From: Acidobacteriota bacterium | GTDB lineage: Bacteria; Acidobacteriota; Vicinamibacteria; Vicinamibacterales; CAVVIG01 | Direction: 5' to 3' | NCBI GenBank assembly: GCA_020850715.1 | Contig: JADZED010000059.1 | Span: 18,934-82,933 of the forward strand | DNA length: 64,000 bases | Part shown: piece by piece, positions 33,052 through 37,667 of the stretch | Position numbering within the stretch: the stretch's first letter is position 1 | How the letters are laid out: every line of letters begins with the position of its first letter | Notes under the pieces: generated by a model | Databases searched by the model: none | What the model saw: the letters and a program-made list of their open reading frames with translations, nothing else | Told to the model about the DNA's origin: nothing | Position numbers and translations under genes: made by a program

Positions 33052-34077
33052 TTATCGCGATGCGCCGACGGTGTCTTCGGTCTTGACCGGCTTGAGGAAC
33101 GGCATCAAATCGCGCAGCCGGGCGCCCACCTGCTCGATCTGGTGGCGCCGCTCGGCCTCCCGCGTCTTGTTGAACGTCGGCCGTCCTGCCTCGTTCTCCG
33201 CGATCCATGCCTGCGCGTACCGGCCGCTGCGGATGTCCTCGAGCATCTGCTTCATCACGCGCCTGGTCTCGGCCGTGACGATCCGCGGCCCGCCCGTATA
33301 GTCACCATGCTCGGCGGTATCGCTCACCGAATAGCGCATGTAGTTCAAGCCACCCTGATACATCAGATCCACGATGAGCTTGAGCTCGTGCAGGCATTCG
33401 AAATAGGCGATCTCCGGCTGGTAGCCCGCCTCGACCAGCGTCTCGAAGCCCGCCTTGACCAGCGCGCTCACGCCGCCGCACAGCACGGCCTGCTCGCCGA
33501 ACAGGTCGGTCTCGGTCTCCTCGGCGAAGCTCGTCTCGATCACCCCGGCGCGCGTCACGCCGATGGCCTTGCCGTACGACAGCGTCAGCGCGCGCGCCTG
33601 CCCGGTGGCATCCTGGTGCACGGCGAAGAGCGCCGGCGTCCCGGCCCCTTCCACATACAGTTCGCGCACGCGATGTCCGGGCGACTTCGGTGCGACCATC
33701 GCGACATCGATGTCCGGGCGCACCGTCACCGTGCCGAAGCGGATGTTGAACCCGTGGGCGAACATCAGCATGTTCCCCTTCTCGAGATTCGGCTCGATCT
33801 CCTCGCGGTAGACCCTTGCGGTGATCGTATCGGGAATCAGGACCATCACCACGTCGGCCCACTTCGAGACCTCGCCCACCTCGCCGACGGCCAGGCCGGC
33901 GGCCTGCGCCCTGGCGCGCGAGCGGCTCGTGGCCGGCAGGCCGACCTTCACGCTGACGCCGCTGTCCCTGAGGTTCAGCGCGTGCGCGTGCCCCTGCGAT
34001 CCATAGCCGATCACCGCCACCTTGCGGCTGCGGATGAGCGCCAGATCCGCCCCATCGTCGTAAATCATCGTCGCCAT
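33052..34077 (-). CDS. ilvC: Ketol-acid reductoisomerase, class I
   Basis: 341 residues, the normal short class I length. The NADPH Rossmann motif [17 protein letters not shown] is followed by catalytic residues in [14 protein letters not shown] and the Mg-binding knotted domain ([32 protein letters not shown]). It isomerises and reduces acetolactate in valine/leucine/isoleucine synthesis. ATG 34077 has AGGGAGT upstream. It is the last recognisable biosynthetic gene of the pheA-ilvBNC unit; TAA stop at 33052. Confidence 0.96.
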
Positions 34078-34134: not shown

Positions 34135-34695
34135 TCAGACCGAGCACGAGCTGATGTCGCCGTTCACCTCCGAGGCGGCGGCGCCCGCGCCCGTTCGCGG
34201 CGCGATCCGCCGGCCGTTGACGAGGCCGCGCGCCATCGCGACGCGTCCCGTGCGCACCATTTCGACGACGCCGTAGGGCCGGAGCACCTCCACCAGGCTG
34301 TCGATCTTGTCCTCGGTTCCGGTGGTCTCGATGACCATCGACTCCGGGCTGACGTCGACGATCCGCGCGCGGTAGACGTCGACCAACTGCATCACGTGGG
34401 TGCGCGCCTCGCCGGTGGCGGCGACCTTGATGAGCGCCAGATCGCGGGCGATGGCCGGCGCGTGCGTGATGTTGTCGACCCGCCGGCACGGCACCAGCTT
34501 GTAGAGGTGCGCCTCGAGCCGCCGCGCCCCGTACTCGTCGGTGTCGACGACGACGGTCATGCGCGAGACCCCGTCGGTCTCGGTGTGGCCGACCGTCAGC
34601 GACTCGATATTGAAGGCCCGGCGTCTGAACAGCGAGGCGACCCGGTTCAGCACGCCCGGCTTGTTGTCCACGTAAACCGCGAATGTATGCAGCAT
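34135..34695 (-). CDS. ilvN: Acetolactate synthase regulatory (small) subunit
   Basis: 186 residues: an N-terminal ACT domain (FAVYVDNKPGVLNRVASLFRRRAFNIESL), a second ACT-like half (~80-160) and a serine/cysteine-rich tail. It binds valine-type effectors and activates the large subunit. It lies 69 bp after ilvB and 57 bp before ilvC. The first 70 residues match the ilvH/ilvN family closely. Confidence 0.93.
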   Translation of the reverse strand: MLHTFAVYVDNKPGVLNRVASLFRRRAFNIESLTVGHTETDGVSRMTVVVDTDEYGARRLEAHLYKLVPCRRVDNITHAPAIARDLALIKVAATGEARTHVMQLVDVYRARIVDVSPESMVIETTGTEDKIDSLVEVLRPYGVVEMVRTGRVAMARGLVNGRRIAPRTGAGAAASEVNGDISSCSV

Positions 34696-34764: not shown

Positions 34765-36471
34765 TCAATCGGCGGCCGTCTCGACGATCGGCGAGGGCCG
34801 CCGGATCATCTTGTGGAGATCTGCGCCCGCCGGCACCATCGGGTACACCGTGTCCTCCTGCTCGACCTGGAAGTCGATGACGGCGGTCCGCTTCTGGCGG
34901 CGCGCCGCCTCGACTGCCCCGGCCACCTCGGCTCGCGTCTTCACCACGGCCGCCGGGATTCCGAACGACCCGGCCAGCCGGGCGAAGTCGGGCCCGCTGA
35001 TCGGCGTGGCGGCGTAGCGCTTGTCGTAGAAGAACTCCTGCCACTGCCGCACCATGCCCAGGTAGCCGTTGTTGATGATGGCCACGTTGATGTCGAGCTG
35101 CTCCTGCACCGCCGTCGCCAGCTCGCACATCGTCATCTGGAAGCCGCCGTCGCCGACCACGACCCAGACCTCCTTGTCGGGGCAGGCGATCTTGGCGCCG
35201 ATGGCGGCCGGCAGGGCGAAGCCCATCGTGCCCAGGCCGCCCGACGTGATCAGCGAGCGCGGCGTGTCGTGCTTGTAGTACTGCGCCTCCCACATCTGAT
35301 GCTGGCCCACGTCGGTAACCACGATCGCGTCGCCATGCGTGAGCCGCCACAGGTCGTTGATCACGTGCGCGGCATAGAGATGGCCGTCATCGGGCAGGTT
35401 CTGGATGTCGCGGACGGCGGCGTCCCCCTTGAGGGCGTGGATGCGGGCGAGCCAGCCCGCACGATCGCGCGGCGTGATGAGCGGCAGCCACTCGTCGAGC
35501 GCGGCGCGCAGGTCCCTGGCGATCGCCACGTCGACGCGCACGTTCTTGTTGAGCTCGGCGCGATCGATGTCCACGTGGATCTTGCGCGCCGTCTGCGCGT
35601 AGGTCTTCAGGTTGCCGGTCACGCGATCGTCGAACCGCATGCCGAGCGCGATCAGCAGGTCGGCCTCCTGAATGGCCTGGTTCACCCAGGCTTCGCCGTG
35701 CATGCCCATCATGCCCATGTTGAGCGGATGCGAGGCCGGCACGCCGCCGATGCCGAGCAGCGTCACCGCGATCGGGATGCCGGCGCGCTCGGCGAGCTCG
35801 CGCACCTGGCGCTCGGCGCCCGCCTGCACGATGCCGTGCCCCGCCAGGATGAGCGGCCGCTCGGCGGTCGCGATGAGCGCCAGCGCGTCGTGTGCGTCGC
35901 CGTCGCCCGGCAGCGCATCGTCGTACGCCTCGCTCAGGCGCGGCGCGGCGGCGTCCCAGTCGACCTCGGCGCTCGCCTGCTGCGCGTCCTTGGTGATGTC
36001 GATCAGCACCGGCCCGGGCCGCCCGGCGCGGGCGATGGCGAACGCCTCGCGAATCGCCGGCGCAATGTCGTGCACGCCGGTCACCAGGTAGTTGTGCTTG
36101 GTGATCGGCAGGGTGATGCCCGTGATGTCGGTCTCCTGGAACGCGTCGGACCCGATGAGACGGCTGCCCACCTGGCCGGTGATGCAGACGATCGGCGAGG
36201 AATCCATCATCGCGGTCGCGATCCCGGTGACCATGTTGGTGGCGCCGGGTCCGGAGGTCGCAATGGCGACGCCCACTCTCCCGCTGGCGCGCGCGAAGCC
36301 GTCGGCCATGTGCGCAGCCCCCTGCTCGTGGCGAACCAGGACGTGGCGGATCGGATAGGCGAGCATCGCATCGTAGGCGGGCAGAATCGCGCCGCCCGGA
36401 TAGCCGAAGACGTCGGTGACGCCCTCGCGTACCAGGGCCTCCCAGAGTATCTGCGCACCGGTCAATGTCAT
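34765..36471 (-). CDS. ilvB: Acetolactate synthase catalytic (large) subunit
   Basis: 568 residues with the ThDP-enzyme layout: catalytic Glu in VRHEQGAAHMADGFARASGRVGV, SGPGATN, the FAD/regulatory middle domain (GMRFDDRVTGN) and the ThDP motif GDGGFQMTMCELATAVQ...NNGYLGMVRQWQ. The last stretch is specific to acetohydroxyacid synthases. ATG 36471 has GAGGAA upstream and lies 40 bp after pheA. The track ORF starts 216 bp further out, inside pheA's region, and is not used. Confidence 0.95.
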   Translation of the reverse strand: MTLTGAQILWEALVREGVTDVFGYPGGAILPAYDAMLAYPIRHVLVRHEQGAAHMADGFARASGRVGVAIATSGPGATNMVTGIATAMMDSSPIVCITGQVGSRLIGSDAFQETDITGITLPITKHNYLVTGVHDIAPAIREAFAIARAGRPGPVLIDITKDAQQASAEVDWDAAAPRLSEAYDDALPGDGDAHDALALIATAERPLILAGHGIVQAGAERQVRELAERAGIPIAVTLLGIGGVPASHPLNMGMMGMHGEAWVNQAIQEADLLIALGMRFDDRVTGNLKTYAQTARKIHVDIDRAELNKNVRVDVAIARDLRAALDEWLPLITPRDRAGWLARIHALKGDAAVRDIQNLPDDGHLYAAHVINDLWRLTHGDAIVVTDVGQHQMWEAQYYKHDTPRSLITSGGLGTMGFALPAAIGAKIACPDKEVWVVVGDGGFQMTMCELATAVQEQLDINVAIINNGYLGMVRQWQEFFYDKRYAATPISGPDFARLAGSFGIPAAVVKTRAEVAGAVEAARRQKRTAVIDFQVEQEDTVYPMVPAGADLHKMIRRPSPIVETAAD

Positions 36472-36511
36472 GGGTTCCTCAGCAGGCGATCGAGAGACTC
36501 CCCTTCCGCGA

Positions 36512-37366
36512 TCACCGCGCCGCCTCGACCGAATCGGCGCGGCGCGCCTCGCGCCGCTTCCAGCTCGCGTACGAGCCGAGCACGCGCAGCATTGGCGCGA
36601 ACTCGGCCAGGTGCGTGAGCGCGCGCGCGCACGGCAGCTCGTCGCGCGCCGCCGCGACGTCCGCGTAGAACAGGTACTCCCACGCACGCCCCGGCATCGG
36701 CCGCGACTCGAGCTTCGTGAGGTCGACGCTGCGCAGCGCGAACGCGCTCAGCGCCTTGAAGAGCGAGCCCGGTTCGTTGGGCAGCGTGAAGACGATCGAC
36801 GTCTTGTCGGCGACGGAGGCGTCGAACGGCCGGCGGCCGATCACGATGAAGCGGGTGACGTTGTGCTCGTAGTCCTGGATGCCCGAAGCGAGGGGCTCGA
36901 GGCCGAAGACCTCGCCGGCCCGCGCCGAGGCGATCGCCGCCGCGTCGCGCAACTGTTGGTCGGCGACCATCTTCGCGCTCCCGGCCGTATCGTAGGTGGC
37001 AATGATCTCCACCCCCGACAGCGTCCGGAGGAACCGCTCGCACTGCGCCAGCCCCTGCGGATGCGAGTAGATGCGCCGCAGCCCGCCGATGGCCACGCCC
37101 GGCAGCGCCAGCAGGTGGTGCACGATCGGCAGCTCCACTTCACCCACGATCGGCAGATGATGCTCGACCAGCAGGTCGTAATTGCGGTGGATGCTGCCGC
37201 CGATCGAGTTCTCGATCGGGAGCACGCCGTAGCCGGCCGGCCCCTGCTCGACCGCCGCGAACACTTCCTCGAAGCTGCGGCACCCCACCAGCTGCGCATC
37301 GGCGCTCACCGCGCGCGAGGCCGCCTCGCTGAACGCGCCCGGCTCCCCCTGATAGGCAATCCTCAT
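36512..37366 (-). CDS. pheA: Prephenate dehydratase (monofunctional)
   Basis: 284 residues from ATG 37366 (a TTG at 37381 would add five). The catalytic domain starts MRIAYQGEPGAFSEAA and contains LPIENSIGGSIHRNYDLL and the TRF motif (EHNVTRFIVIG). A C-terminal ACT domain (SIVFTLPNEPGSLFKALSAFALRSVDLTKLESRP) binds phenylalanine. It converts prephenate to phenylpyruvate. There is no chorismate mutase domain. It is the first structural gene behind the attenuator leader. Confidence 0.94.
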   Translation of the reverse strand: MRIAYQGEPGAFSEAASRAVSADAQLVGCRSFEEVFAAVEQGPAGYGVLPIENSIGGSIHRNYDLLVEHHLPIVGEVELPIVHHLLALPGVAIGGLRRIYSHPQGLAQCERFLRTLSGVEIIATYDTAGSAKMVADQQLRDAAAIASARAGEVFGLEPLASGIQDYEHNVTRFIVIGRRPFDASVADKTSIVFTLPNEPGSLFKALSAFALRSVDLTKLESRPMPGRAWEYLFYADVAAARDELPCARALTHLAEFAPMLRVLGSYASWKRREARRADSVEAAR

Positions 37367-37386: not shown

Positions 37387-37419
37387 AAAAAAGGCCATCA
37401 TCCGCTGCGGATGATGGCC
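37387..37419 (-). terminator. Intrinsic terminator/attenuator hairpin ahead of pheA
   Basis: The minus strand reads GGCCATCATCCGC, a one-base loop, then GCGGATGATGGCC: a perfect 13-bp inverted repeat followed directly by six T residues. It lies inside the leader, about 20 bp before the pheA ATG, so it would stop transcription before the operon. Its 5' arm can instead pair with an upstream copy of GCGGATGA at 37445-37452 (see the leader peptide entry). Confidence 0.85.
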
Positions 37420-37444
37420 TCGGGTGCTTCGCGCCCCGCTCACC

Positions 37445-37567
37445 TCATCCGCGCGGCCACCGCCGCCTCACCCTCAGGCGCCCGACGACCAGGCGCCCGA
37501 CAACCGGGCCGAACAGGGCAATGGTCCCGGCCTGGGGCCCGGAACCGGCGACGGCCGTGAGCCACAT
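37445..37567 (-). CDS. Attenuator leader peptide (40 codons) of the pheA-ilvBNC operon
   Basis: ATG 37567 to TGA 37445. The peptide carries a run rich in branched-chain and aromatic codons (IALFGPVVGRLVVGRL), including an imperfect 15-nt duplication encoding VVGRL twice (37475-37504). The stop codon lies inside GCGGATGA (37445-37452), which is complementary over 8 bases to TCATCCGC (37407-37414) in the terminator's 5' arm. A ribosome stalled at the Val/Leu codons would leave the antiterminator arm free; one reaching the stop would cover it and let the terminator form. This is the classical mechanism, inferred here. The ORF was too short for the track. Confidence 0.7.
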   Translation of the reverse strand: MWLTAVAGSGPQAGTIALFGPVVGRLVVGRLRVRRRWPRG

Positions 37568-37576
37568 CGTGCGTCG

Positions 37577-37606
37577 ATTAGACTGCCCGCGAGCACTAGA
37601 AGTCAA
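37577..37606 (-). promoter_or_regulatory. Promoter of the pheA-ilvBNC leader
   Basis: TTGACT (5/6; 37606-37601), an 18-bp spacer and TCTAAT (5/6; 37582-37577) on the minus strand, inside an unusually AT-rich stretch (37600-37650). The expected start point is about 37570, only ~3 nt before the leader-peptide ATG, so the leader peptide would be read from a nearly leaderless transcript. Confidence 0.75.
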
Positions 37607-37667
37607 ATTGATAATCATTACAAGATCATCATCAATACGAATGCTTTGATCCCTGGCTCCCGCCCCT

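Follow-up and report, generated by a model that had tools for sequence, protein, structure and literature searches.

A predicted ribosome-mediated attenuator upstream of pheA-ilvBNC in Vicinamibacterales and its core-conserved relatives in Acidobacteriota

Described attenuators and the leader between dcd and pheA

In the trp, his, thr and ilv attenuators of enterobacteria, the position of the ribosome on control codons selects the helix that forms in the leader RNA (PMC1183508). The ilvBNC leader of Corynebacterium and the ilvB-II motif combine a branched-chain amino acid (BCAA) leader peptide with an antiterminator opposed to a terminator (PMC11857589, PMC10272879), and transcription of Corynebacterium ilvBNC starts one base from the leader ATG (PMC11857589). 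Other described systems include the ilvB-OMG motif, a putative uORF rich in BCAA and Thr codons before ilvB that is known from 41 representatives in various phyla (PMC10272879), and the uORFC-8-2 motif before cysS (PMC8632094). In Sinorhizobium meliloti, the trpL RNA begins at the leader ATG, with trans activity possible for both the leader peptide and the attenuated RNA (PMC7298713). For Acidobacteria, Naville and Gautheret noted that hardly any predicted attenuator has an assigned function (PMC2965389), and a literature search on attenuation in Acidobacteria or Vicinamibacter, the scope of which did not include Lopatovskaya et al. (2010; cited in PMC4833913), found no description.

The window analyzed here is a stretch of 64,000 nucleotides from a genome of the order Vicinamibacterales (3.6 Mb in 82 contigs, 93.6% complete). 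With a probability of about 0.93, the 301-bp gap between dcd and pheA on the minus strand carries a ribosome-mediated transcription attenuator of pheA-ilvBNC that senses mainly Val and Ile and that belongs to a core-conserved family of Acidobacteriota. Like the Corynebacterium leader, it would combine a BCAA leader peptide with an antiterminator and a terminator; like the enterobacterial leaders, it would let the position of the ribosome on control codons select the helix. It differs from the enterobacterial leaders in that the stop codon lies inside segment 2, a segment 1 receives no support beyond chance, and one sequence core serves operons of several amino acids. The ilvB-II motif, for its part, is actinobacterial, occurs once per genome and has a leader of 15-17 aa, with reuse of its core elsewhere not stated; no sequence match to it was obtained via Rfam. 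S. meliloti trpL differs in belonging to a Trp operon and in its leader peptide of 14 aa (PMC7298713). The uORFC-8-2 motif, a Cys-codon uORF followed by a terminator, resembles the Cys members of the present family but is alphaproteobacterial and serves one operon type (PMC8632094). As to ilvB-OMG, no Rfam 15 model matched the window or five relatives at permissive thresholds, and some overlap is possible. The mechanism is a classical one, and what appears to be new is a family across Acidobacteriota in which one core serves many operons and amino acids.

The features of the leader and the operon are collected in Table 1. The gene upstream, dcd, lies on the same strand, and the gap contains, in order, a promoter, an ORF and a terminator. 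The ORF encodes MWLTAVAGSGPQAGTIALFGPVVGRLVVGRLRVRRRWPRG, and its TGA (37447-37445) falls within GCGGATGA, as the sequence-only reading had described. That reading had also pointed to a hairpin of 13 bp with six T before pheA, and a terminator scan returned exactly this site: the stem (37420-37408 with 37404-37392) has 13 bp plus a 14th as G-U, and 20 nt separate the end of the T tract from the pheA ATG at 37366. The octamer TCATCCGC is able to pair with either copy of GCGGATGA, at the leader stop or in the terminator 3' arm, the duplication on which the proposal of mutually exclusive pairing had been built. Folding of the leader stretch, one of the checks proposed with that reading, gave a better structure than all 200 of 200 dinucleotide shuffles (z = -3.4). 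Two features of the window copy speak less well for the attenuator. First, its Val codons, at -8, -13, -14, -18 and -19 counted from the stop, form a 2+2+1 run, weaker than that of relatives, which often have 4-5 consecutive Val codons. Second, segment 2 departs from the family consensus at one position (GGATGAGG in place of GGATGATG).

Table 1. Predicted elements of the leader and genes of the operon in the window
Feature	Position	Strand	Basis
Promoter: -35 TTGACT 37606-37601, 18-nt spacer, -10 TCTAAT 37582-37577	37577..37606	minus	sequence; predicted
Leader ORF, 40 codons + TGA, ATG at 37567	37445..37567	minus	sequence; conserved in orthologues
Segment 2, GCGGATGA, contains leader stop; predicted antiterminator partner of segment 3	37445..37452	minus	pair counts, 41 sequences
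Segment 3, arm common to antiterminator and terminator; TCATCCGC at 37414-37407	37407..37420	minus	sequence, covariation
Segment 4, second GCGGATGA 37405-37398 and six T 37392-37387; terminator 3' part	37387..37405	minus	terminator scan; 3:4 covariation
pheA, prephenate dehydratase, first controlled gene	36512..37366	minus	NCBIfam NF008865, above cut-off
ilvB, acetolactate synthase large subunit	34765..36474	minus	TIGR00118, above cut-off
ilvN, acetolactate synthase small subunit	34135..34695	minus	TIGR00119, above cut-off
ilvC, ketol-acid reductoisomerase	33052..34077	minus	TIGR00465, above cut-off

No ilvD lies between pheA and ilvB in the window (36474-37366); most f1 relatives have the order pheA-ilvD-ilvB-ilvN-ilvC.

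A sigma-70 scan at default thresholds did not list the leader promoter of the window. The TTGACT and TCTAAT hexamers, spaced by 17-18 nt, nevertheless recur in most pheA-led orthologues. The leader ATG of the window follows only 9 nt past the -10 hexamer. Among 20 pheA-led leaders examined, 15 have a matching promoter, and in all 15 of these the gap from the -10 hexamer to the ATG is 8-13 nt; several ilvD-led leaders of family f8 have a longer gap. Given this spacing, transcription probably begins on the ATG or only a few bases away from it, which would make the message leaderless or almost leaderless. The frame remains open further upstream to an ATG at 37618, which is 5' of the promoter. An A+T-rich element (about TTATn..GTAAgAATTATaAATTTGAC) lies around and upstream of the -35 hexamer (37577-37640 in the window). 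Throughout the order ilv promoters share this element, including those that have no attenuator, as in families f2 and f4 (L072, L080, L098, L107, L117-L123); it could be a UP element or an operator. A candidate Fur box, TTGTAATGATTATCA (37623-37609), fits 13 of 15 positions of a Fur-type palindrome by eye and was judged a coincidence, because relatives conserve the A+T-rich surroundings of the -35 hexamer but not the palindrome.

Exclusive helices and control codons

An alignment of the core (A1, 41 sequences) supports both helices of the proposed switch. In the terminator helix 3:4, 92.9% of cells are paired and 5 pairs show double changes; in the antiterminator helix 2:3, the values are 89.7% and 4 pairs. 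The covariation score of each exceeds those of all 500 shuffles, and pairing falls to 19-58% when the partner is slid. Since segment 3 is common to both helices, compensatory changes come in threes: U-A-U has turned into C-G-C once in L095/L104 and once more, separately, in L137, and in L071/L077 an A-U pair has become G-C with G in segment 4. The mutually exclusive pairing claimed from the window alone is thereby borne out in orthologues. In simulated folding of the nascent RNA, 2:3 formed in 41 of 45 leaders when the ribosome was stalled, and 3:4 formed in 45 of 45, the window included, when it was at the stop. RNAalifold draws a helix between segments 1 and 2 in ten f8-type sequences; for the ilv, hom and thrA leaders, the pairing energy of such a 1:2 protector helix equals that of dinucleotide shuffles. 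Segment 1 is not part of every attenuator model, so its missing support does not exclude membership in the attenuator class.

Leader ORFs were chosen as the frame with a stop in or beside segment 2, ignoring composition. In the control window of 60 ilv leaders, this frame contains 26% Val and 9% Ile, and the other two frames contain 3-4% Val and 1% Ile. Val and Ile together make up 2-15% of each of the last six positions and 28-63% of positions -7 to -18. This placement implies that a ribosome stalled on these codons would leave segment 2 free, whereas one on the stop would cover it. Leu, which the sequence-only reading had counted with Val among the regulatory codons, is not enriched in the ilv group (8%), so that of its Val/Leu-rich composition with Ile and Phe the Val and Ile components stand. 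As to Phe, it is at most a secondary signal, reaching 5.2% of the control window in pheA-led leaders versus 1.3% in ilvD-, ilvB- or ilvN-led leaders (P = 2e-4), a contrast confounded with phylogeny in that nearly all pheA-led cases come from one family.

These Phe codons bear on a second view of the leader, that it senses several amino acids including phenylalanine rather than mainly Val and Ile. The place of pheA at the head of the operon, the Phe contrast and the presence of Phe in pheA-led leaders of f7 (L063) and f15 (L092) too would fit such sensing. Most leaders have at most one Phe, against runs of Val, the control window is free of Phe in 6 of 20 pheA-led leaders, and phylogeny may explain a signal drawn almost entirely from one family. 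We consider sensing of this broader kind unlikely.

Control mainly by Val and Ile could proceed as follows. RNA polymerase would begin on the leader ATG or up to a few bases 5' of it, with a ribosome trailing the polymerase. With enough charged Val and Ile tRNA, the ribosome would reach the stop and cover segment 2, 3:4 would pair, and transcription would end before pheA. With Val-tRNA (or Ile-tRNA) in short supply, the ribosome would stall at least seven codons upstream of the stop, leaving segment 2 free to pair with segment 3 while polymerase continues into pheA-ilvBNC. What comparison among genomes brings out in favor of this predicted scheme is the layout of the leader, conservation of its frame and of the place of its stop, covariation of both helices and codons matched to pathway; from these we infer translation of the leader, termination in vivo and relief by starvation for Val or Ile. 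The helices, the position of the stop and the distance and identity of the codons all support the original proposal of a ribosome-mediated attenuator of pheA-ilvBNC.

One core ahead of several amino-acid operons

Orthologues were surveyed by PheA and IlvN searches in 162 genomes of the order, the upstream regions of which were then read. A total of 46 orthologous attenuators were collected ahead of pheA-, ilvD- or ilvB-led operons, with an identical order of elements, which places the leader elements beyond chance. The block precedes pheA in families f1, f7 and one f15 genome, ilvD in f8, f12, f14 and f15, and ilvB in f11 and f13. The comparison of this gap among relatives, which had been proposed as a check, thus finds the hairpin, the segment pair, the frame, the stop position and the Val/Ile codons conserved. 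The attenuator is absent in G002, G005, G020 and the f2/f4 genomes examined; in such attenuator-free relatives the promoter is retained and the first gene begins near it.

The survey also bears on whether the hairpin does no more than end transcription of the dcd unit upstream, with the ORF and repeats there by chance. The hairpin does share the strand of dcd and lie 3' of it, and intergenic terminators are common. However, the attenuator tracks the ilv operon rather than dcd: other families have copies before ilvD or ilvB without dcd, and the block also occurs before hom, thrA and cys genes. Moreover, the interval between dcd and the hairpin holds a promoter and a Val/Ile-coding frame, and covariation links segments 2 and 3. 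A dcd terminator is therefore a very improbable account.

The core was turned into a covariance model (R1), with which 396 Acidobacteriota genomes and all 162 genomes of the order were searched. Matches at E <= 0.001 were found in 93 of the 162 Vicinamibacterales genomes and, outside the order, matches above 40 bits in five families (f24, f26, f42, f68 and f90). A control phylum, the one to which a Planctomycetota record belongs, was represented by 199 genomes and gave a best score of 32.4 bits, and five other genomes searched with R1 gave no match. A broader model (R2) includes some reverse-strand matches to palindromes and was left out of the counts; over the source genome it returned only the two known copies (along with opposite-strand reads of palindromes), the rest having E > 1. 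The attenuator of the earlier reading thus stands, but not as a stand-alone case: it is one copy of an Acidobacteriota-wide family.

Many R1 matches lie away from ilv genes, and profile searches of the genes downstream identified homoserine dehydrogenase (hom) and bifunctional aspartate kinase/homoserine dehydrogenase (thrA) for Thr/Met, cysteine synthase (cysM) and a CysG N-terminal domain (cysG) for Cys, and citramalate synthase (cimA) for Ile, together with threonine ammonia-lyase, isoleucyl-tRNA synthetase, LysR regulators, glutamate synthase and MFS transporters. Codon content in the leaders follows these genes. Thr codons make up 18% of hom leaders and 35% of thrA leaders versus 5% in ilv leaders, Met codons 9% of hom leaders versus 1%, Cys codons 29% of cys leaders versus 1%, and Leu codons 31% of the leaders of a micropeptide group (see below) versus 8%. 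Fisher P values for the contrasts between operon groups range from 1e-7 to 1e-33; since the sequences are related, these overstate independence, but the differences are large and are seen again from one family to another, in several of them. Examples, each ending at its stop codon, are MQTHPSAATTIVITTTTCGVPRG before thrA (L224), ...MLVRACACPCCCPACCRRQDVVYG before cysteine synthase (L302) and the Met-rich MGMAMRMRSMAAMSMRRRAGG before hom in f11 (L271). For the glutamate synthase and MFS cases, a clear match of codons to pathway was not seen.

No other argument for leader translation as the sensor is as strong as this swapping of codons by nature on a fixed core. It is a natural counterpart of the codon-swap experiment by which attenuation is usually supported. 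That a metabolite riboswitch or a bound protein drives the 2:3/3:4 switch, with the ORF incidental, is scarcely credible: helices conserved in sequence and structure and the same core before many operons would suit it, but no Rfam family matches, the two short helices are the sole conserved structure, and codon content varies by operon to match the pathway.

The Rfam searches covered 4227 families of Rfam 15 against the window, at gathering and permissive E-values, with no match; weak hits were to unrelated sRNA, snoRNA and lncRNA models below gathering scores. Against 16 further loci, Rfam 15 returned one tRNA only, and against 5 loci at E <= 1 it returned nothing.

With a core of GGAUGAUG, GGCCAUCAUCC, GGGUGAUGGCC and a U tract, the leader codons would reveal the amino acid sensed. 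A function can now be proposed for many Acidobacteria attenuators, making regulation readable from MAGs of a soil phylum that is abundant but for the most part uncultured, and the question of why segment 2 keeps eight identical bases in different operons and families becomes testable.

Several groups of copies merit separate mention. Copies before hom or thrA with Thr-rich leaders (Met-rich in f11) include L210, L211, L213, L216-L218, L220, L224, L227, L229, L271, L276, L289, L292 and L295, among others. Cys-rich leaders (L212, L247, L299 and L302), carried among others by Luteitalea-like genomes, precede a CysG-type siroheme synthase, a cysteine synthase or a redoxin-domain gene. The Luteitalea-like genomes (f4), which have no ilv copy, carry their Cys copy before a cysteine synthase gene (L302, L247). 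LysR-type regulator genes follow the core behind Val/Ile-rich leaders at L219, L222, L239, L253 and L254, and these could be BCAA regulators. Before isoleucyl-tRNA synthetase (L282 in G160, L285 in G107), an Ile-rich frame, GIITPIGIPIGIIGAGI, ends beside segment 2; no nearby ATG start was found for it.

Small ORFs of the leucine branch and the LeuA tail

The second copy in the source genome (G000:C10:99985-100071) has the Leu leader MLARTISPRTLPANLGLVSLLLLDLGLPGPGSTG, followed by a stop, and precedes an ORF of 49 aa ending GYGFGV; copy and ORF together make up locus L209 (G000:C10:99985-100250). About 20 such small ORFs (46-90 aa, with a variable N part) were seen in f1, f2 and f15. They end in GYG[HYF]G[VI], and most of them lie 3' of a core-family attenuator, the leader being Leu-rich in most cases (L214, L217, L221, L223, L228, L252, L254, L258, L273, L277, L288, L290, L291, L293, L296 and L305). 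In four f1 genomes the small ORF is placed between the attenuator and hom; at L254 a GYGHGV small ORF sits between the attenuator and the LysR gene. Searches of the small ORFs against Pfam and NCBIfam gave no match, and the string GYGHGV was not found in the literature searched.

The pattern GYGHG[VI]-stop occurs in 69 of the 162 genomes, mostly once in each, and a reversed control gave few matches. At 24 of 30 such loci that were read, it is the C-terminus of LeuA, 2-isopropylmalate synthase, the enzyme that opens leucine synthesis. The small ORFs may thus be a mimic of the LeuA tail under leucine control. More tentatively, the family as a whole might form a phylum-wide starvation regulon, with one core and codons swapped by operon, in which the micropeptides of the leucine branch copy the GYGHGV tail of LeuA and perhaps free or stabilize the enzyme when leucine is short. 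LeuA with a GYGHGV end (L341 in the source genome) is about 408 aa long, and its match to leuA_bact stops at position 377 of 494; the third Pfam domain is absent, so that this short LeuA lacks the usual C-terminal regulatory domain.
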